Assembly (NCBI GenBank): GCA_001464055.1
Contig: LNET01000105.1
Span: forward strand, 1-64,000
Direction: 5' to 3'
Length of the DNA stretch: 64,000 nucleotides
Source of the DNA: Burkholderiales bacterium Ga0077543
GTDB taxonomy: Bacteria > Pseudomonadota > Gammaproteobacteria > Burkholderiales > Burkholderiaceae_C
Shown here: positions 35,868 to 45,719 of the stretch, in pieces
Position numbering within the stretch: the first letter of the stretch is position 1
Layout of the letters: each line of letters starts with the position of its first letter
The notes under the pieces: model-generated
Database searches by the model: none
The model's input: only the letters and a program-made list of their open reading frames with translations
Told to the model about the DNA's origin: nothing
Made by a program: the position numbers and the translations under genes

Positions 35868-36371
35868 TCAGTTGTCGGTTTGCGAGACGCGCTCTTTCAG
35901 CCGGCGCAGAATGGAGGGTGCCACGAACTTGGAAACATCACCGCCAAGGCTGGCAATCTCGCGCACGAAGGTGCTGCTGACGAACTGGTACTGGTCCGAG
36001 GGCGTCATGAAGACGGTCTCGACGTCGGGCATCAGCTGGCGGTTCATGCCGGCCATCTGGAATTCGTATTCGAAGTCGCTGACGGCGCGCAGCCCGCGGA
36101 CCACGACCTTGCCTCCCTTGGCGACAACGAAGTCGCGCAGCAGGCCGCGAAACGGCACGACTTCGACGTTCCCGTAAGGCGCAGCGATCTCGCGGGCGGC
36201 ATCCAGGCGTTCGGCGATGGTGAACATCGTGCGCTTGTGGTGGCCGGCAGCCACGGCCAGGATGAGGCGGTCGAACAGGCGTGAGGCCCGGCGCATCAGG
36301 TCTTCGTGGCCCAGCGTCATCGGGTCGAAGGTACCCGGGTAGACGGCGGTCAGCGGGGTGGCAGTGGTCAC
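35868..36371 (-). CDS. coaD: Pantetheine-phosphate adenylyltransferase
   Basis: Fourth step of coenzyme A synthesis (4'-phosphopantetheine + ATP to dephospho-CoA). 167 residues. The nucleotidyl-transferase T/HxGH motif reads TLGHEDL in [17 protein letters not shown], with the phosphopantetheine pocket [17 protein letters not shown] and the C-terminal SSTFVREIA. Lies between rsmD and the ferredoxin, the familiar rsmD-coaD-fdx order. Confidence 0.96.
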
Positions 36372-36441
36372 GGCCTCGTGCTCCTGATCATGCTCATGTG
36401 AGGGGGTTACCCTGCGGACGGGCGCAGTGTAGCCGCGACAT

Positions 36442-37002
36442 TCATGATTCGTGCCTGAACAACTGGGCGTGAACTGCGCCAGCTTTCAGACTGCGGTGCA
36501 GTTGCAGACCGGCCGGCCAGTCCTTCATCGGTTCTGCGCCCTCCAGGTAGACATAGGCCCCCTTGCCCGTCAACCGGGCTGCCTGCACCAGGGCCGGCGC
36601 CGACAGGCTGGCAGCGAACGGAGGGTCCAGCAGCACCAAGTCGAAGCTGCCCGGCGCGGCACGGGTCATCCAGGCCAGGGCATCGGCGCGTTCGACCTGC
36701 AACGCCGTGGCTCCCAGCCGGGTGCGGCTGGCCTGCAGGCTGGCCACGAGCTGGGCGTCCCATTCCAGCAGCCGCACATCGGCTGCACCCCGGGATGCGG
36801 CCTCGAAGCCCAGCGCCCCGCTGCCGGCAAACGCGTCCAGCACGCGCCAGCCGCTCAGGTCCTGCCCCAGCCAGTTGAAGAGCGTTTCGCGCACGCGGGC
36901 GGGCGTGGGGCGCAGGCCCGGCCGGTCGGCGACCGGCAGCTTGCTGCGACGCCACTGGCCGCCGATCAGGCGGACTTCGCCGGGCGCCCGCCGCACCGTC
37001 AC
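36442..37002 (-). CDS. rsmD: 16S rRNA (guanine966-N2)-methyltransferase RsmD
   Basis: 186 residues. The start is the GTG overlapping the hisF stop (GTGA), giving the family N-terminus [19 protein letters not shown]-binding site [19 protein letters not shown] and the catalytic DPPF in [11 protein letters not shown] are present. Longer in-frame extensions run antisense-free into hisF and lack homology. It is placed downstream of hisF and upstream of coaD. Confidence 0.93.
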
Positions 37003-37772
37003 TGCCGCACCGGGATGCCGTGTGCGGCCATCAGCGCCTTGGCCTGGCCGACAGTGAATTCGCCGTAATGGAAGATGCTGGCGGCCAGTACGGCGTCGGC
37101 ACCGCCCTGACGGACGCCTTCGACCAGATGCTCGAGCGTGCCCACACCGCCAGAGGCGATGACAGGCACCGGTACGGCGTCGCTGACGGCGCGCGTCAGC
37201 GCCAGGTCGAAGCCGCTCTTGGTGCCGTCGCGGTCCATGCTGGTCAGCAAGATCTCGCCAGCGCCATGCCCGGCCATCTGGCGCACCCAGGCCAACGCGT
37301 CGAGGCCGGTGTTCTTGCGACCGCCGTGGGTATAGACGTCCCAGCCGGGGCCGCGCGGGTCGCCATCGGCGCGCTTTTTCGCGTCGACGGCCACGACGAT
37401 GCACTGGGCGCCGTACTTGTCGGAAGCGTCGCGGATGACCTGCGGGTTGGCCACGGCGGCCGAATTGAAACTGACCTTGTCGGCACCGGCGTTGAGCAGC
37501 CGCCGAACATCGTCGACGCTGCGCACCCCGCCGCCGACCGTCAGTGGGATGAACACCTGCGAGGCCACGGCCTCGATGATGTGCAGGATCAGGTCGCGGC
37601 CATCGCTGGTGGCGGTGATGTCGAGGAAGGTCAGTTCGTCGGCGCCCTGGTCGTTGTAGCGCGCGGCGATTTCCACCGGGTCACCGGCGTCACGAAGGGA
37701 CTCGAAGTTGACGCCCTTGACGACGCGGCCGCCAGTGACATCGAGACAGGGGATGATGCGTTTGGCCAACAT
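36999..37772 (-). CDS. hisF: Imidazole glycerol phosphate synthase, cyclase subunit
   Basis: Forms imidazole glycerol phosphate and AICAR from PRFAR using ammonia from HisH. 257 residues, (beta/alpha)8 barrel with both phosphate-binding halves: [16 protein letters not shown] (Asp11 region) and [13 protein letters not shown] (Asp130 region), plus [14 protein letters not shown]. Cut off from hisA by an opposite-strand gene. hisI and hisE, the usual next genes, are replaced by rsmD. Confidence 0.97.
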
Positions 37773-37873
37773 AGATGTAGATTATCCGCGGCGACAAGGG
37801 CTTCCGGCCTGGGCTCGCCAAAACCGCCAACCCGCCTCATGGCAGGAACGCTTCCAACCACCAGGAGAAGACG

Positions 37874-38467
37874 ATGAACCGATGGATTGCCCTCGCAGTG
37901 CTGGCCTGTGCCGGCAGCGCCCAGGCCCAGACGACCTTGTTCGCCGGCACCTTCGCCCCCGAAGCGACGGGCGCCACCGGCAGCGGCACGCTCTTCATGA
38001 CCTACGACCCCGTCGCGCGCAGCCTGGACATCCAGGCCAGCTGGTCCGGTCTGTCGGGCAACACGACCACCGCCCACATTCACTGCTGCAACGCCAACCC
38101 CTTGACGGGCACATCGGGCGTGGCGCTGGCGGAAAACGGAATCCTGCCGGGCTTTCCGACAGGAGCCAACAACGGCAGTTACAGCCGCTTGATCGACCTG
38201 TCGCAGTCCAGCCAGTACGGCGGTACGTTCTTCAACGCCAGCGGGGGCACGACGCTGGCCGCAGAACAGCGGCTGATCGCCAACCTGATCAGTGGCAAGG
38301 CCTACTTCAACATCCACAGCAGCACCTTCACTCAAGGCGAGATCCGCGCCTTCGTGACCGTGGTGCCCGAACCCGCCACCTACGCGCTGATGGCCCTTGG
38401 GCTGGCTGCCGTGGTCGGCCTGGCTAGCAGCCGCAAGGCTGCCACTCCTTCTGCGGCTGCGGCCTGA
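37874..38467 (+). CDS. CHRD-domain protein with PEP-CTERM sorting signal
   Basis: 197 residues: signal peptide (ALAVLACAGSAQA-Q), a CHRD-like domain (about residues 22-160; TTAHIHCCNANPLTGTSGVA and AYFNIHSSTFTQGEIRAFV), and at the C-terminus VPEPATYALM, a hydrophobic helix and a basic SSRK stop, the PEP-CTERM signal processed by exosortase. Such proteins are exported with the extracellular matrix. It stands alone on the opposite strand between hisF and hisA, with AGGAG seven bases before the ATG. No exosortase gene is in the window. Confidence 0.88.
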   Translation: MNRWIALAVLACAGSAQAQTTLFAGTFAPEATGATGSGTLFMTYDPVARSLDIQASWSGLSGNTTTAHIHCCNANPLTGTSGVALAENGILPGFPTGANNGSYSRLIDLSQSSQYGGTFFNASGGTTLAAEQRLIANLISGKAYFNIHSSTFTQGEIRAFVTVVPEPATYALMALGLAAVVGLASSRKAATPSAAAA

Positions 38468-38470
38468 GGC

Positions 38471-39211
38471 TCAGACCGCCAATTCGTCGGCGCGCGCTTG
38501 GGCTTCGGCGAAGTCCAGCGCGCCCGTGTAGATGCTGCGGCCACAGATGACGCCTTCGACACCGTCGGATTCGACGGCGCACAGGGCGTCGATGTCGGCC
38601 ATGCCGGCCAAGCCGCCCGATGCGAAGACCGGGATGGTCAACGCCCTCGCCAGCTTCACGGTGGCTTCGACGTTGATGCCGGTGAGCATGCCGTCGCGCC
38701 CGATGTCGGTGTAGATGACGCCTTCGACGCCGTAGTCTTCGAACTTCTTCGCCAGGTCCACGACTTCGTGGCCGGTGAGCTTGCTCCAGCCGTCGGTGGC
38801 AACCTTGCCGTCCTTGGCGTCCAGGCCCACGATGATGTGACCACCGAAGGCGCTGCAGGCGTCCTTCAGGAAACCCGGGCTCTTCACGGCAGCGGTGCCG
38901 ATGATGACGTAGCTCAGGCCGTCGTCCAGGTAGCGTTCGATGGTGTCCAGGTCGCGGATGCCACCGCCCAGCTGCACCGGAATCTTGTCGCCGACGACGC
39001 GCAGGATGGACTTCACGGCTCCTTCATTGACGGGTTTGCCGGCAAAGGCCCCGTTCAGGTCGACCAGATGCAGGCGGCGCGCCCCGGCGTCCAGCCAGCG
39101 CTGCGCCATGGCGCCCGGGTCGTCGCCAAAACTGGTGGCAATCGACATGTCGCCTTGTTCAAGGCGCACGCAGTGGCCGTCTTTCAGGTCGATGGCAGGA
39201 ATCAGCAGCAT
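38471..39211 (-). CDS. hisA: Phosphoribosyl-formimino-AICAR-ribonucleotide isomerase
   Basis: Isomerises ProFAR to PRFAR. 246 residues, paralogous barrel to HisF with [20 protein letters not shown] (catalytic Asp8), [15 protein letters not shown], the second acid [13 protein letters not shown] and [14 protein letters not shown]. It ends three bases from the convergent CHRD gene, so any transcript toward hisF must read through that gene antisense. Confidence 0.97.
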
Positions 39212-39267
39212 GGCTCAGCGCAGCAGGTGGGATGGGGGTGGGAAAGCGGACTTCGAGGCGGAAGACG

Positions 39268-39912
39268 TCACGGGTTCCAGCGCAGGAAGTTGCGGTACAG
39301 CGCCAGACCCTGCTCGGCACTTTTTTCCGGGTGAAACTGCGTCGCGAAAATGTTATCCCGCGCCAGCGCACAGGTAAAGCGCGCGCCGTACTCACTGAGG
39401 CCCGCAGTGTGAGCCGCCTGGGCCGGTTCGGCATAGAAACTGTGCACGAAATAGAACCACGCCCCGTCGGGCACGCCGGCCCAGACCGGGTGCGGCCGCT
39501 GGAAGACACGGTTCCAGCCCATCTGCGGCACCTTGTAGCGGCTGCCGTCGGGCTGCAGCCGGTCTTCGAGCTGGAAGCGCTTCACCCGGCCCGGCACCAG
39601 GCCCAGGCCCAGGGTGTCCTGCTCTTCGCTGTGGTCCAGCAGCATCTGCATGCCCACGCACACGCCCATCAGCGGCTTGTGCGCGGCAGCGTGCAACACG
39701 GCGTCTTTCAGGCCCGATTCACGGAGTTCGCGCATGCAGTCGCGCATCGCACCCTGGCCGGGCAGCACCACGCGGTCGGCGGCAAACACCTCCTCCGGGT
39801 TGGCGGTGACGATCACGCGCACATCGCTGTCGCGCGCGACATGGGCCACCGCTTGCGAAACAGAGCGCAGATTGCCCATGCCGTAGTCGACGACAGCGAC
39901 GGTGCTGGCCAT
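39268..39912 (-). CDS. hisH: Imidazole glycerol phosphate synthase, glutamine amidotransferase subunit
   Basis: Supplies ammonia to HisF. 214 residues from ATG giving [17 protein letters not shown]; the longer open frame upstream overlaps hisB and lacks homology. Class I glutaminase triad: nucleophile Cys in [11 protein letters not shown], and His/Glu in [13 protein letters not shown]. The oxyanion region [11 protein letters not shown] is intact. It starts 8 bp after hisB. Confidence 0.95.
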
Positions 39913-39920
39913 GACCGGTC

Positions 39921-40511
39921 CTAGAGGCTGCCTTTGGTGGAAGGAATGACACCGGCCGAACGCGGATCGGGTGTCAGCGCCATGCGCAGCGCCCGGGCAA
40001 AGGCCTTGAACACCGTTTCGCACTGGTGATGGGCGTTTTCACCCTTGAGATTGTCGATGTGCAGCGTGACGAGTGCGTGGTTGACGAAGCCCTGGAAAAA
40101 CTCGTACGTGAGCTGGGTGTCGAAGCCGCCGATGGCGCCGGCCTTGAAGGGCACGTGCATGTGCAGGCCCGGACGACCGGAAAAGTCGACGACCACGCGC
40201 GACAGCGCCTCGTCCAGAGGCACGTAGCTGTGACCATAGCGGGTGATGCCGCGCTTGTCGCCCACGGCCTTCGCAAAGGCCATGCCCAGAGTGATGCCCA
40301 CGTCTTCCACGGTGTGGTGGCCGTCGATGTGCAGGTCGCCCTTGGCGTGGATGTGCAGATCGATCAGCCCGTGACGCGCAATCTGGTCGAGCATGTGGTC
40401 GAAAAAGCCGATGCCGGTGGACAGATCGGCCTGGCCGGTGCCATCCAGGTCGACCTGCACCCGAATCTGTGTTTCCTTGGTGTCGCGCTGGACGGTGGCG
40501 GTTCTGTTCAT
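39921..40511 (-). CDS. hisB: Imidazoleglycerol-phosphate dehydratase
   Basis: 196 residues, the monofunctional form (no HisN-type phosphatase domain). The manganese-binding repeats are visible: [16 protein letters not shown] with [17 protein letters not shown] and the second copy [12 protein letters not shown] and [17 protein letters not shown]. The start lies one base after the hisC stop, so the two are tightly coupled. Confidence 0.97.
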
Positions 40512-40512
40512 T

Positions 40513-41607
40513 TCAAAGGCTCGCTTTCAGGGCCGCCATCATCAGATCGTTCTCTTCCGGTGTGCCGACGGTCAGGCGCAGGCATTGCGCCAGCAGGGGG
40601 TGCAGGCCGGCGATGTGCTTGACCAGCACGCCGCGGGCCTTCATGCCTTCGAACGTGTGTTTCGAATCGGGCACACGCACCAGGATCATGTTGGCTTCGC
40701 TGGGAAATGGCTGCACGCCGGGCAGCGCCTGCAGCGCGGCCTGCAGCCGGCCGCGTTCTCTCTTCAGCAGCTCGGCCTGGCGGGCATATTCGCCCGCATG
40801 GTCCAGCGCGAACAGCGCCGCTTCGGCGTTCAGCACGCTGACGTTGTAGGGCGGGCGCACCTTGTCGATCTCGTCGACCAGCGCCGCATGGCCGCACAGG
40901 TATCCCAGGCGCACGCCAGCCAGGCCGAACTTCGACAGCGTGCGCATCACCAGCACGTGCGGTTGCTGTGCCATGCGCTGCAGCCAGCTGCGACTGGAAA
41001 ACGGCTGGTAGGCCTCGTCCATCACCACCAGGCCGTTCTGGCGGCCGACAGCGTCGACGATACGCTCGATGGCAGCTTCGCTGAACAGGTTGGCCGTGGG
41101 ATTGTTCGGGTAGGCGATGTAGGTGATCGCCGGGTGATGCGTCTCGATGGCGGCCAGCATCGCGGCTTCGTCCAGGTCGAAATCCGGGCGCAAAGGCACG
41201 CCGACGAAGCGCATGCCACGCAGCCGTGCGCTCATTTCGTACATCACGAAGCCCGGCAGCGGCGCCAGCATCACCGCGCCGGACACGTTGCAGGCCACCG
41301 ACAGCAGGTCGATGAGCTCGTCAGAGCCATTGCCCAGGATCAGCTTGCAGCCCGCCGGCAGTTCGACATGCCGCGACAAGGCGGCCACCAGGTCGACCGT
41401 GCTCTGTACCGGATAGCGGTTGATGGCCACCCGTGCAAGGCGCCGGCCCAGATCGGCCTGCAGTTCCGGCGGCAGCCGGAAGGGGTTTTCCATCGCGTCC
41501 AGCTTCACCAGTCCGGCACTGGGCTGGATCGCGTAGCCGTGGGTCGACTGCACGTCCTGCCGGATGGTGCGGGCGATGCGGTCGGCCAGAGTGGGCGGCG
41601 GGCTCAT
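40513..41607 (-). CDS. hisC: Histidinol-phosphate aminotransferase
   Basis: PLP-dependent class I/II aminotransferase, 364 residues. Motifs: [63 protein letters not shown] and the PLP lysine in [15 protein letters not shown]. The start ATG overlaps the stop of the upstream vapC in ATGA. The longer open frame upstream is antisense-like to vapC and not used. Its ribosome binding must therefore come from inside vapC. Confidence 0.96.
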
Positions 41608-42050
41608 GCGGGAACGTCCAGGATGTCGGGGCTGCTGATGAAGGGGTTGACGATGCGCACGCCGTCGATCTGCTGGCCGTGCTGCAGATCTTCGGTCAGC
41701 AGCCAGCGACAGGCCTGGTGCTGGGCCGCCGCCACCATCAGGGCGTCCCAGTAGCTCAGCCCGTAGCGGCTCTCCACGGCCCACGCCGACTCGATGGTGA
41801 GCTGGTCGATGATCCAGGGTTTCCAGTTCTGGTAGCGGCGTACATCGGAGCGGGCATCGCCCGCCGACAGCGATGCCGAGAACTTCTTGCGCACGTTGGC
41901 GTAGAACTCGTTGACGACCTGGGTGCTGATGCGGCCGCAGCGCCGTTCCCAGCACACCGCCAACCAGTCTCGGGCACGGTCGCGCTTCTGGGGGTCCCGA
42001 TCATCCACGCCGTAAAGCAGCACGTTGGTGTCGACGAAGACCGCGCTCAT
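41604..42050 (-). CDS. vapC: VapC-type PIN-domain ribonuclease toxin
   Basis: 148 residues. All four acidic PIN residues are visible: Asp7 (VFVDTNVLLYG), Glu48 (TQVVNEFYANV), Asp102 (SYWDALMVAAA) and Asp121 (LLTEDLQHG), so an active RNase is predicted, probably cutting tRNA or another RNA as in other VapC toxins. Start overlaps the antitoxin stop by ATGA; stop overlaps hisC start by ATGA. Base composition matches the neighbours, so there is no sign of recent transfer. Confidence 0.92.
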   Translation of the reverse strand: MSAVFVDTNVLLYGVDDRDPQKRDRARDWLAVCWERRCGRISTQVVNEFYANVRKKFSASLSAGDARSDVRRYQNWKPWIIDQLTIESAWAVESRYGLSYWDALMVAAAQHQACRWLLTEDLQHGQQIDGVRIVNPFISSPDILDVPA

Positions 42051-42283
42051 CGGCCGCGACCCCGGTCGTACAACTCATCGTCGGTCAGATAGGGGCCCGT
42101 GGAAACGCCATAGCTGCGGAACTCCAGCGCCTCGCGCATCGCGCGCTCGTAGGCGTCGTCGTGCCGCATCTTCTCGGCCAGCAACTCGCCCACCAGGCGT
42201 GACACGCTGGTGTTGCGCCGGGCAGCCTCCATGCGCGCCCAGTCGGCGACGCTTTCTTCCATGGTGACGGTGACGTTCTTCAT
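42047..42283 (-). CDS. vapB: VapB-like ribbon-helix-helix antitoxin
   Basis: 78 residues. The N-terminal part (KNVTVTMEESVADWARMEAA, then NTSVSRLVGELLAEKM) reads as a ribbon-helix-helix DNA-binding domain; the charged C-terminal tail (RHDDAYERAMREALEF, DDELYDRGRGR) probably wraps the toxin. It is translated just before vapC, with a 4-base overlap. It has its own promoter and a palindromic operator upstream. A small hairpin (GGACC-TGC-GGTCC) lies immediately before its ATG, where a Shine-Dalgarno is weak. Confidence 0.88.
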   Translation of the reverse strand: MKNVTVTMEESVADWARMEAARRNTSVSRLVGELLAEKMRHDDAYERAMREALEFRSYGVSTGPYLTDDELYDRGRGR

Positions 42284-42287
42284 GTTC

Positions 42288-42300
42288 GGACCGCAGGTCC
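42288..42300 (-). promoter_or_regulatory. Leader hairpin GGACC-TGC-GGTCC before vapB
   Basis: A perfect five-bp stem with a three-base loop ends four bases before the vapB ATG, in the place of the ribosome binding site. It would be within the roughly 30-nt leader of the predicted vapB transcript and could limit antitoxin/toxin translation. Seen in sequence; effect inferred. Confidence 0.4.
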
Positions 42301-42319
42301 ACTGGCTTCGTGAAACACA

Positions 42320-42348
42320 ACTCTAGTGTTGCACGAAGTTCGTGTCAA
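42320..42348 (-). promoter_or_regulatory. Promoter of the vapBC module, overlapping the hisD stop codon
   Basis: Minus strand: -35 TTGACA (42348-42343, perfect consensus), 17-bp spacer, -10 TAGAGT (42325-42320, 4/6). Transcription would begin near 42313, about 30 bases before the vapB ATG. The TGA in TTGACA is the stop codon of hisD. It can drive vapB, vapC and read on into hisC, hisB, hisH and hisA. Confidence 0.7.
42332..42344. promoter_or_regulatory. Palindromic operator in the vapBC promoter
   Basis: CACGAA-G-TTCGTG, a perfect 6-bp inverted repeat with one central base, lies between the -35 and -10 boxes of the vapBC promoter. A third half-site TTCGTG is at 42307-42312, and a second inverted pair AACAC/GTGTT spans 42314-42330. 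This arrangement fits an autoregulatory site for the RHH antitoxin. Confidence 0.6.
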
Positions 42349-44135
42349 TCCAGGGGCAGAATCATCTTCAGCTCGCCGTCTTCCGCTTCGCCGGTGTAGG
42401 TGAAACCCAATTTCGCGTAAAAGCCCGCCGGGCTGCCGGGCAGGTCCCGGTGCGACAGGCCCACGCTCTGCAGGCCCAGACGCCTGGCTTCGTCGACGAC
42501 CCATTGGATGGCCAGCCGCCCATAGCCGCAGCGCTGGTGTTGCGCGTCCACCAGCAGGCGCCAGACGTACAGCTGTTCGGCGGGCTGGTCCTTGTCCTGT
42601 CGCATGTCGTAGAGCAGCATCATGCCCACGGCAGTCTCGCCATCGAACATCGCCACGGCTCGGCCCGCGGGTGAATACGCCACCTGGGCCAGCGACACGG
42701 GCACGCTGGCCACGAAGGGGCGCTGGCCGGCGGCCACTTCCAGCTTCATCACCGCATCCAGATTGACCCCGTCCACCGGCCGCACGCTGAAGGCCACGCC
42801 CTGGGGCAGCGCAGCCGCGGCGGGCTGCACGCGCATTTCGGCTGCGCGGGCATGCGCCTGCAGGCCTTCGCCATAGGCCAGTTCGGCAGCCACCGGGCCC
42901 AGCAGGTTGGCACCGACCTGGGTGACCTGGATGAGGCTGCTGCGCTTGACGAAGTCGTACACGCCCAGGGGCGAGCTGAAGCGCGCCGTGCCGGCGGTGG
43001 GCAGCACATGGTTCGGCCCGGCGCAGTAGTCGCCCAGGCTTTCGCTGGTGAAGCCCCCCAGGAAGATGGCACCGGCGTGGCGCAGCAGAGGCTCCCAGCG
43101 GCCAGGTTCGGCCGACATCACTTCCAGATGCTCGGGCGCCAGGCGGTTGCTGATCTCGCAGGCTTCTTCCATCGAGCGGGTGTGGATCAGCGCGCCGCGC
43201 CCTTCCAGCGAGGCGCGGATGATGGCGGCACGCGGCATCTCGGGCAGCAGGCGGTCGATGGCGGCCTGCACGGCGGCGATGTAGTCGGCGTCGGGGCAGA
43301 GCAGGATGCTTTGCGCCAGCGCGTCATGCTCGGCCTGGCTGAACAGGTCCATCGCCACCCAGTCGGCCGGCACCGTACCGTCTGCCAGCACCAGGATCTC
43401 GCTCGGCCCGGCGATCATGTCGATGCCCACCTGCCCGAACACACGCCGCTTGGCGCTGGCAACAAAAGCATTGCCCGGGCCGGTGATCTTGTCCACCCGC
43501 GGCACCGTGGCCGTGCCGTAGGCCAGGGCCGCCACCGCCTGCGCGCCCCCGATGGTAAAGACGCGGTGTACGCCGGCCACATGCGCGGCAGCCAGCACCA
43601 GCGCGTTCTTCGCACCCTCAGGCGTGGGCACGACCATCACGATCTCTCCGACTCCGGCCACCTGCGCCGGAATGGCGTTCATGAGCACGCTGCTGGGGTA
43701 GGCCGCCTGGCCACCGGGCACGTAGATGCCCACGCGGTCCAGCGGCGTGACCTTCTGGCCCAGCAGGCTGCCGTCGCGGTCCAGGTAGTGCCAGCTGCGG
43801 CTGCTGGCGTCGAGCTGGCGCAGGTGGTACGCGCGGACACGTTCCGCGGCGTTTTCAAGCGCGACGCGTTGGGCGGGCGGGATGGCATCGAAGGCGGCCC
43901 GCAGTTCAGGCGCGCCGATCTCCAGCGCTGCCACGCTGTCGGCTTGCAGCCGGTCGAAGCGGGCCGTGTAGTCCAGTACCGCCGCGTCGCCACGGGCGCG
44001 CACGTCGGCAATGATTTCGGCCACGCGGGTCTCGATCGCGGCGTCGGTGTCGGCAGACCAGTGGCGCAGTCGTTGGAAGTCGGTTTCGAAGCCGGCGGCC
44101 TGGGTCGACAGGCGATGGACCCCGACCGGGCTCAT
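42345..44135 (-). CDS. hisD: Histidinol dehydrogenase fused to a C-terminal GNAT acetyltransferase domain
   Basis: 596 residues against about 430-440 for normal HisD. Residues 1-440 are a complete histidinol dehydrogenase (last two steps to histidine): [17 protein letters not shown], zinc ligands Gln267/His270 (FSQAEHD), Asp369 ([13 protein letters not shown]) and His428 (EGLQAHA), and catalytic Glu335-His336 (LAPEHLEVM). Residues 447-596 are a GNAT fold with acetyl-CoA loop [12 protein letters not shown] (534-545) and ending [17 protein letters not shown]; they resemble diamine/polyamine N-acetyltransferases (PaiA/BltD type). The frame is continuous with no stop. Start overlaps the hisG stop (ATGA). 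Confidence 0.93.
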
Positions 44136-44800
44136 GGGTGATTCCTTCGAGAGGCCGCGTCGAAGGCTTCGATCAACGCACGCAGCCTGTCCTGCTTCAG
44201 CTTCAGCGAGGCCGGGTTCACCACCAGCCGCGCCGAGATGTCCATGATGTGCTCGACCTCGACCAGATGGTTGGCCTTGAGCGTGCTGCCGGTGGACACC
44301 AGGTCGACGATGGCATCGGCCAGGCCTGTCAAGGGCGCCAGTTCCATCGATCCGTAGAGCTTGATCAGGTCGACATGCATGCCTTTCGCGGCGAAGTGCT
44401 CGCGAGCGATGTGGGTGTACTTGGTGGCCACGCGCATGCGCGCGCCATGGCGGGCTGCTGCAGCGTAGTCGAAGCCGGCGCGGGTCGCCACGCTCATGCG
44501 GCAGCGGGCAATGCCCAGGTCCACCGGCCGGTACAGGCCCACCACGCCGCCGGGGCCCAGTTCATGGGCATGTTCCAGCAAGACGTCGTGCCCGGCCACG
44601 CCCAGGTCGGCGCCGCCATGCTGCACGTAAGTGGGTACGTCGCTGGCGCGCACCAGCACCACGCGCAGGTCGGCACGGCTGGTGGGCAAGATGAGCTTGC
44701 GGCTCGTTTCGGGGTTCTCCAGCACCTCGACGCCGGCCGCGCGCAGCAGCGGCAGGGTGTCGTCGAAGATGCGGCCCTTGGATAGCGCGAGTGTGATCAC
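44132..44800 (-). CDS. hisG: ATP phosphoribosyltransferase, short form
   Basis: First enzyme of histidine synthesis (ATP + PRPP). 222 residues from a GTG giving [18 protein letters not shown], the usual short-form start; another GTG 36 bp upstream (residues [11 protein letters not shown]) is possible. The C-terminal regulatory domain of long HisG is missing, so this is the HisZ-dependent type; hisZ is not in the window. PRPP loop [16 protein letters not shown] is present. Stop overlaps hisD in ATGA. Confidence 0.94.
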
Positions 44801-44856
44801 CGGGTGTCTGGGGAAAGGGTGGCGCGCAGCCACCACGGCCCCGCACCGAAGGGGAA

Positions 44857-45117
44857 TCAGGCGTGGTGGCCGGCGGCAGGAGCCGCAAATTCGCTGGGGG
44901 TCAGGGTCTTCATCGACAAGGCGTGAATCTGCTCGCGCATTCTATCGCCCAGGGCCGAATAGACACGCTGGTGGCGGCGCACCCGCGACATGCCTTCGAA
45001 CTCGGCCGAGACGATGGTGGCAAAGAAGTGCCGGCCATCGCCCTCGACCTCGAGATGCGAACAACTCAGGCCCGCGGCGATGAAGTCGCGCACCTGCCCG
45101 GGCGTGGGGTCGCTCAT
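44857..45117 (-). CDS. BolA/IbaG-family protein
   Basis: 86 residues with the BolA fold: [20 protein letters not shown], a variable loop, then [23 protein letters not shown] (helix-turn-helix-like). BolA-type proteins bind monothiol glutaredoxins and iron-sulfur clusters. Start overlaps the stop of the ClpP-like gene (ATGA). In Burkholderia and Ralstonia, from memory, murA sits between this gene and hisG; here hisG follows directly. Confidence 0.9.
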
Positions 45118-45719
45118 GACAGGTCGGCCTGACGTTCGACGACGCGCGAGACGATGCCGTAGGCCGTGGCTTCCTCGGCGCTCATCCAGTAGTCGCGCTC
45201 CATGTCGGTCATCACCTTGTCCAGCTTCTGGCCGGTCTGGCGCGCCACCACGGCGGCGATGCGCGCGCGGGTCTTGATGATTTCCTTGGCCTGGATGGCG
45301 ATGTCGGTGGCCTGGCCGCCGGCGCCGCCGGCGGGCTGATGGATCATGAAACGGGTGTTCGGCAGGCAAACCCGGCGCTCGGCAGGAGGCGCCAGGAAGA
45401 TGTGCGTGCCGGCGCTGGCGACCCAGCCCGTGCCCACCGTGGTGACCGGAGCGCGCACGAAGCGGATCATGTCGTGGATGGCGTCACCGCTCTCGACATG
45501 GCCACCCGGGCTGCTGACCAGCATGTGGATGGGCGCATCGGACTCCTGCGACAGCGCGATCAGGCGGGCACAGGTGGCGCGGGCCATCTTGTCGTCGATC
45601 TCGCCGAACACCATGACGAAGCGCGACTTGAACAGCAGTTGCGCTTCCTGGCCGTCGGCGGCGTTGTCCTTGGCGGCCTTGGAAGGCTTGTCGTCGCCAG
45701 CGTTGGTGATGGTGTGCAT
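45114..45719 (-). CDS. ClpP-family serine protease, divergent paralogue
   Basis: 201 residues with the complete triad: Ser102 (GTGWVASAGTHIF, the ASA in place of the usual AAS), His127 (NTRFMIHQPAGG) and Asp176 (TDMERDYWMSAEEA). The N-terminus has a soluble Lys/Ala-rich stretch instead of the canonical ClpP start. ATG with CTCCGGAG seven bases upstream. No clpX is adjacent. It is embedded between the ABC exporter and bolA, so it may be a second, specialised ClpP rather than the housekeeping one. Confidence 0.85.
   Translation of the reverse strand: MHTITNAGDDKPSKAAKDNAADGQEAQLLFKSRFVMVFGEIDDKMARATCARLIALSQESDAPIHMLVSSPGGHVESGDAIHDMIRFVRAPVTTVGTGWVASAGTHIFLAPPAERRVCLPNTRFMIHQPAGGAGGQATDIAIQAKEIIKTRARIAAVVARQTGQKLDKVMTDMERDYWMSAEEATAYGIVSRVVERQADLS

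Follow-up and report, generated by a model that had tools for sequence, protein, structure and literature searches.

Histidine Genes and the vapBC Pair

The window, by which we mean the whole 64,000-nucleotide stretch of DNA that was analysed (positions 1 to 64,000 of contig LNET01000105.1 of Burkholderiales bacterium Ga0077543), carries a run of histidine genes on its minus strand. The run starts with hisG (44836-44132) and hisD (42345..44135), an in-frame fusion with a GNAT acetyltransferase domain at its C-terminal end. Then come vapB (42283-42047), encoding a probable ribbon-helix-helix antitoxin, vapC (42050-41604), encoding a PIN-domain protein that has all four acids in this genome, and hisC (41607-40513), whose start lies within the vapC stop (ATGA). 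The next gene, hisB (40511-39921), is putatively served by the vapBC promoter as well, and it is followed by hisH and hisA (38471..39913), which we named by reading the sequence rather than from a family search; the name hisF also comes from reading the sequence. On the plus strand between hisA and hisF there is a gene (37874-38467) whose product has a CHRD domain and a PEP-CTERM signal, so hisF is separated from the his operon here.

An earlier note on this DNA had placed vapB and vapC between hisD and hisC on the same strand, and the coordinates bear this out. The four-base ATGA overlaps that it described between vapB and vapC and between vapC and hisC, as between hisG and hisD, are there in the sequence. 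It had also named a terminator between vapC and hisC as a point against its idea, and we found no terminator-like site there in the window. vapC and hisC may be translationally coupled, as that note expected. Of 46 loci in which the junction of these two genes was measured, using start codons chosen by a script, 31 have the ATGA overlap, and Rhodoferax-type loci have gaps of 17-65 bp. There is no overlap between hisD and vapB; the 61 bp that separate them contain sequences resembling a promoter and an operator.

The promoter-like site in this gap, TTGACA-17-TAGAGT (42320..42348, minus strand), lies within three tandem palindromes of the CACGAA-n-TTCGTG type with a 16-bp period, and its -35 is overlapped by the hisD stop. 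The first palindrome, CACGAACTTCGTG, is perfect (42332..42344). The second is degenerate and lies 16 bp further, over the -10 (42316..42328), and the third, also degenerate, lies another 16 bp on (42300..42312); all three are given on the minus strand. The promoter-like site is the only one in the 9.5 kb from 36000 to 45500, and because 0.6 are expected there by chance, it is not significant by count alone. A small antitoxin gene directly upstream of the toxin gene and overlapping it, together with a predicted operator in the promoter region of the module, is what the sequence of a type II VapBC should have.

The HisD-GNAT fusion was in one frame in all 23 locus records that had both parts, several of these records being duplicates of one genome. 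We also saw it in L032-L034, L045, L049, L053, L109, L243, L247, L250, L251, L257-L259, L269 and L289.

The VapC and VapB Proteins

VapC matches the Pfam PIN domain PF01850 with 42.4 bits (cut-off 23.6). The claim that the toxin has all four PIN acids is correct for the window, where they are D7, E48, D102 and D121. The AlphaFold2 model of VapC has a mean pLDDT of 94.5 and matches PcrIIC1 and solved VapC chains, and PcrIIC1 (8wmm_G) is the only PDB profile match at E <= 0.001 (E 6e-10). The same genome has a second, distant VapC-like gene (35% identity; G000 contig C123, 1131-1541, L002).

We consider VapB a probable ribbon-helix-helix antitoxin with putative DNA binding, judging from its model. 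It scored 25.3 against Pfam DUF6364, just below the cut-off of 27.3, and had no NCBIfam match at 0.001. The model is of moderate quality (mean pLDDT 74.6, with residues 1-40 at 82-96 by block) and has an extended N-terminus and two helices. The top Foldseek ranks were largely ribbon-helix-helix proteins (CopASO, Arc, CopG), none of them at E <= 0.001. Residues 1-50 are the most constrained part of the protein. Across 119 loci their median identity to the window was 0.78 and 18 of the 50 columns had one residue at 90%, in an alignment where one row (L176) is shifted by a wrong start.

Distribution and Synteny

Within the genus, 48 of 81 genomes had some VapC match, and all 20 genomes with a VapC identity of at least 50% have vapC just before hisC. 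Where we fetched the loci of weaker matches (L002, L022-L031), no his genes lie next to the match. In a collection of named genomes, which shares about a dozen genomes with the genus search, 37 of 41 loci were before hisC, and these came from Rubrivivax, Ideonella, Inhella, Methylibium, Roseateles, Sphaerotilus, Aquabacterium, Rhodoferax, Curvibacter and further Burkholderiales. Carriers of the locus in this collection include Rubrivivax sp. A210, Inhella crocodyli and Rhodoferax sp. TH121. The other four loci were L068, which begins at a contig end, and L070-L072. Eleven loci of the genus search were dropped because they were the same records as named-collection loci.

The family sample covered 399 genomes from 141 genera. 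VapB (E up to 1e-8) was found in 119 genomes from 55 genera, one copy each, and every one of the 119 loci was just 5' of hisC, with vapC in between in 118. Because the arrangement recurs at all 119 VapB loci, its placement in the window is not chance. An order sample of 300 genomes gave 13 matches, ten of them outside the family, and these ten genomes had no his genes in the flanks (about 1.5 kb per side, less in L238). The earlier note had said that the same pair at other places in relatives would count against its idea; such pairs exist outside the family, with VapB at 44-51% identity, and none was found inside it.

The Operator Array

We looked for pairs of operator sites spaced at exactly 16 bp and no farther than 120 bp from vapB. 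When each site was allowed 4 mismatches at most, 116 of the 119 family loci have such a pair, and 112 of the 119 still have it at up to 2 mismatches, while the control of 120-mers from elsewhere in the same loci gave 27 in 21,333. The operator consensus was taken from 115 rows. A strict operator pattern matched 92 of the 399 family genomes, all 92 of which have vapB, and its reversed control matched none. The place was re-found within 120 bp of vapB for 91 of the 92; in the remaining genome, G433 (L153), the listed place is about 180-205 bp before vapB. The array of the window itself is not matched by the strict pattern, its sites 2 and 3 being degenerate. A looser array pattern matched 15 of the 81 genus genomes, and by coordinates 14 of these (from the 20 with vapC) were at the his vapBC locus; the remaining match was G061 (L085), a his operon without vapC and with an altered vapB.

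For comparison we used his loci without vapB. This set was not random, since it was made up of 25 from the top 30 HisC matches and another 40 picked further down the same list, and it amounted to 65 of 68 further his loci after L245, L252 and L260 were excluded for having vapB (L241 and L242 were excluded likewise). None of the 65 has the operator pair within 1500 bp before hisC, at 2 or at 4 mismatches per site. An operator before hisC where vapB is present (116/119) and absent where it is not (0/65) is the pattern to be expected of a regulator of the distal his genes. Module and operator are thus gained and lost jointly, at this one site.

We also considered a global VapB regulon, which was not supported, as the operator array was found only at the his vapBC place.

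The Position of hisD and the Likely Source of hisC Transcripts

In many relatives hisD is not next to the module. Among 117 of the 119 loci (two were dropped for too little flank), hisD was more than 400 bp off in 56 and unseen in 24, for a total of 80, as against 7 of the 65 loci without vapBC (Fisher 1e-14). In 55 of those 65 vapB-less loci, no more than 150 bp separate hisC from the end of hisD or of its GNAT part. When we corrected for kinship on the hisC tree there were 14 independent pairs, with on average 6.0 going the expected way and 0.5 the other way (median p 0.06), which we regard as no more than suggestive of a link between vapBC and a moved hisD.

For the 80 split loci we then used codon-position GC to judge how the neighbour of vapB is oriented. 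By this measure it shares the strand of vapB in 37 loci and runs opposite to it in 35, and 8 were unclear. Of ten hand-picked opposite-strand neighbours, eight had a Pfam domain on that strand. A neighbour on the opposite strand cannot transcribe hisC in sense, which makes the vapBC promoter region the likely source of the hisC transcripts. Judging from this arrangement of genes, we believe that hisC and the genes after it are probably expressed from the vapBC promoter region. The earlier claim that toxin-antitoxin control is tied to histidine synthesis is strongly supported in this form, but the link that holds is operator-vapB-vapC-hisC and not hisD-vapBC-hisC.

Loss of Catalytic Acids and Selection

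The catalytic acids of VapC are often lost. In 118 his-linked VapC proteins (L216 has no vapC and is not counted) the quartet is DEDD in 37, and a D or E stands at all four positions in 59. The other 59 have lost at least one acid: 11 of them lost one of the first three and 48 lost the fourth only, so the mutated active site that the earlier note had listed as a point against it occurs at half of the family loci and not in the window genome. In free-standing VapC relatives, most of which are only 35-50% identical, DEDD was present in 25 of 25 distinct proteins (26 loci, with one gene present twice as L229/L240; Fisher 3e-11). On the hisC tree the acid state changes at least 17 times and the state of the core acids at least 8 times. 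The fourth acid may be non-essential for catalysis. Loci that lost an acid more often have a split-off hisD (47/58 vs 32/58, p 0.005, uncorrected for kinship).

Fifteen VapC loci between L145 and L170 have the quartet DDDE, in which the second and fourth acids are swapped jointly (E to D and D to E). This joint swap may be compensatory.

To see how the genes are selected, we compared dN/dS in 20 disjoint close pairs. Within vapB it was 0.053 for residues 1-50 and 0.23 for the remainder, and the values for vapC and hisC were 0.138 and 0.115. The 12 close pairs with an acid-missing VapC gave 0.099 for vapC and 0.101 for hisC, and the 8 acid-complete pairs gave 0.202 and 0.139. A wider set of 278 pairs, which includes pairs whose hisC looks recombined, gave 0.46 for vapC vs 0.25 for hisC, and 0.54 vs 0.25 in its acid-missing pairs. 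Taken together, these values mean that vapC is constrained within clades and diverges more between clades. A VapC that has lost catalytic residues, and yet within clades is conserved no less strictly than a biosynthetic enzyme, probably has another function. Co-repression is given as a second role of type II toxins in the available part of PMC4803016.

One alternative is that vapBC is a selfish addiction module anchored in an important operon. Cells that lost it would then suffer from the freed toxin, and its influence on his expression, if any, would be a by-product. In favour of this, the window genome has all four acids, DEDD is kept at 37 of the 118 loci, and vapB is altered where vapC is lost; addiction is also discussed as a reason for the fixation of such modules in the available text of PMC2701414. 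We nevertheless think it unlikely, because at least one acid is missing from 59 of the 118 proteins, with at least 17 changes of state, and yet close pairs are under purifying selection, and because many relatives have no vapBC between hisD and hisC and no trace of the operator. The loss of acids speaks against addiction in those lineages and not against regulation.

Two loci have no vapC. In L085 (G061) vapB is changed at otherwise conserved positions and the operator pair is still present, and in L216 (G384) vapB is divergent and one operator site is left. As vapB is altered in both, VapB alone does not seem to be kept, which argues against a regulator that consists of VapB only.

The selection data also bear on whether vapBC is a passive passenger, an old insertion read through from hisG that has no regulatory role. 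The short overlap with hisC on the same strand would fit this, as would the faster divergence of vapC than of hisC in the wider comparisons. However, the operator pair is kept at 116 of 119 loci, the dN/dS of vapB 1-50 is half that of hisC in close pairs, and hisD is often distant, the adjacent gene apparently running on the opposite strand in many cases. We give this explanation very little credence.

It is also conceivable that the VapC ribonuclease cuts a histidine-related RNA, such as tRNA-His or the his transcript, so that the pair senses the histidine supply directly. The link to hisC is constant, and targets do vary, since the available part of PMC4803016 describes an enterobacterial VapC that cuts initiator tRNA and other VapC proteins with different targets. 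One of the structural matches is described, in the portion of its description available to us, as a VapC that cleaves the sarcin-ricin loop. Half of the loci have lost at least one catalytic acid while the hisC link stays, and we find a histidine-related target quite improbable.

Inheritance of the Module

Over 98 loci the distances of vapB, vapC and hisC correlated with those of hisB at 0.51, 0.49 and 0.46. The correlation was only 0.30 between vapC and hisC and was 0.83 between vapB and vapC. Mapped on the hisC tree, vapBC appears or disappears no fewer than 20 times, which means that loss or exchange of the module was frequent. In G042 (L016/L049) the his genes are 91-97% identical to those of the window, while VapC is 65% identical and vapB has a different C-terminus, which suggests from the sequences that the toxin-antitoxin pair was exchanged in place.

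A recent mobile insertion is ruled out by the synteny and by vapBC distances that track hisB. We also looked for a plasmid origin and did not find one: the 112 matched plasmid records were all below 60% identity, and of 15 records at 38-42% identity among the matches listed, 14 adjoin an AbrB-type antitoxin gene.

A Probable Regulated Internal Promoter

Our preferred explanation, which we hold to be likely, is that the VapBC module was captured and put hisC and the his genes distal to it under a regulated promoter inside the operon. It draws on the synteny, the operator and its exclusivity, the purifying selection, the loss of acids and the opposite-strand upstream genes, all of which are sequence data. 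An autoregulated VapBC with its own promoter and tandem-palindrome operator would have been fixed between hisD and hisC early in the family, and would then have become a regulated internal promoter for hisC and the distal his genes. VapB would bind the tandem CACGAA-n-TTCGTG sites and repress, with VapC as co-repressor. When VapB drops, presumably through proteolysis in starvation, the promoter would open and vapBC and hisC onward would be transcribed. The intact VapC of the window genome would still be a toxin.

Comparison across genomes argues strongly that vapBC has a fixed and selected function in regulation, while the mechanism is derived from the anatomy of the locus and from known type II autoregulation. 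As the toxin has often lost catalytic residues and its gene is retained all the same, vapBC resembles a switch integrated into the control of histidine synthesis more than a selfish element that strayed there. We put somewhat less than even weight on the further step that VapBC is a dedicated repressor pair, in which VapC was repeatedly de-catalysed and is now a co-repressor, and that this toxin-antitoxin circuit, rather than a classical attenuator or repressor, sets the expression from hisC onward.

In the open-access literature we found, among the matches listed, no report of a toxin-antitoxin module in a his operon (subscription papers were not covered), and that literature also gave no regulator of histidine synthesis in the bacterial group of the window genome. 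The vapBC pair is a candidate for such a regulator. The locus also bears on what chromosomal toxin-antitoxin modules do. Its place is fixed and each genome has a single operator region, there are relatives in which the site is naturally empty, and both intact and acid-lost variants occur, the acids having been lost repeatedly. With these natural variants and the fixed place, the claim that a toxin-antitoxin module became an ordinary metabolic regulator is directly testable.

Comparison with Known Systems

PcrIIC1 is the closest solved relative of VapC by sequence profile and by fold. We know of no link between PcrIIC1 and his genes. It differs in that its structure was solved in complex with a Cas9, according to the part of its description available to us.

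Acidovorax is a related genus. The vapBC of Acidovorax citrulli (Aave_0579-0580) is likewise a VapBC pair; it is reported to be induced by amino acid starvation and to be unique to group II strains in the account available from PMC4701950. That available account has no mention of his linkage. The published description, as available, does not support its being the same locus, and it appears to be another one, set apart here by description and not by sequence.

The MqsA antitoxin regulates rpoS and csgD, as stated in the available portion of PMC4803016, and is thus similar in that an antitoxin acts on cellular genes. MqsA acts at separate promoters, whereas here the putative targets would lie downstream in one unit with vapBC itself.

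The closest free-standing counterparts are the vapBC pairs of other Burkholderiales families, 11 loci in 10 genomes (L228-L230, L232-L234 and L236-L240, of which L229 and L240 are the same gene pair). Their VapB is 44-51% identical to that of the window, and if up to 4 mismatches are allowed, 6 of the 11 loci have a pair of sites at 16 bp and 9 of the 11 have at least one site. They differ in having no his genes in the flanks and a complete catalytic quartet at 11 of 11 loci.

In general the module has the features of a type II VapBC: the gene order, the overlap, a PIN fold with four acids in this genome, a probable ribbon-helix-helix antitoxin, and a palindromic operator over a promoter-like site. 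It differs in its fixed place before hisC, seen in 55 of the 141 genera sampled, in that its strict operator was found nowhere else, and in that the catalytic acids are often lost and the gene is kept. We conclude that the module is of a familiar kind and that its stable role before hisC is new.
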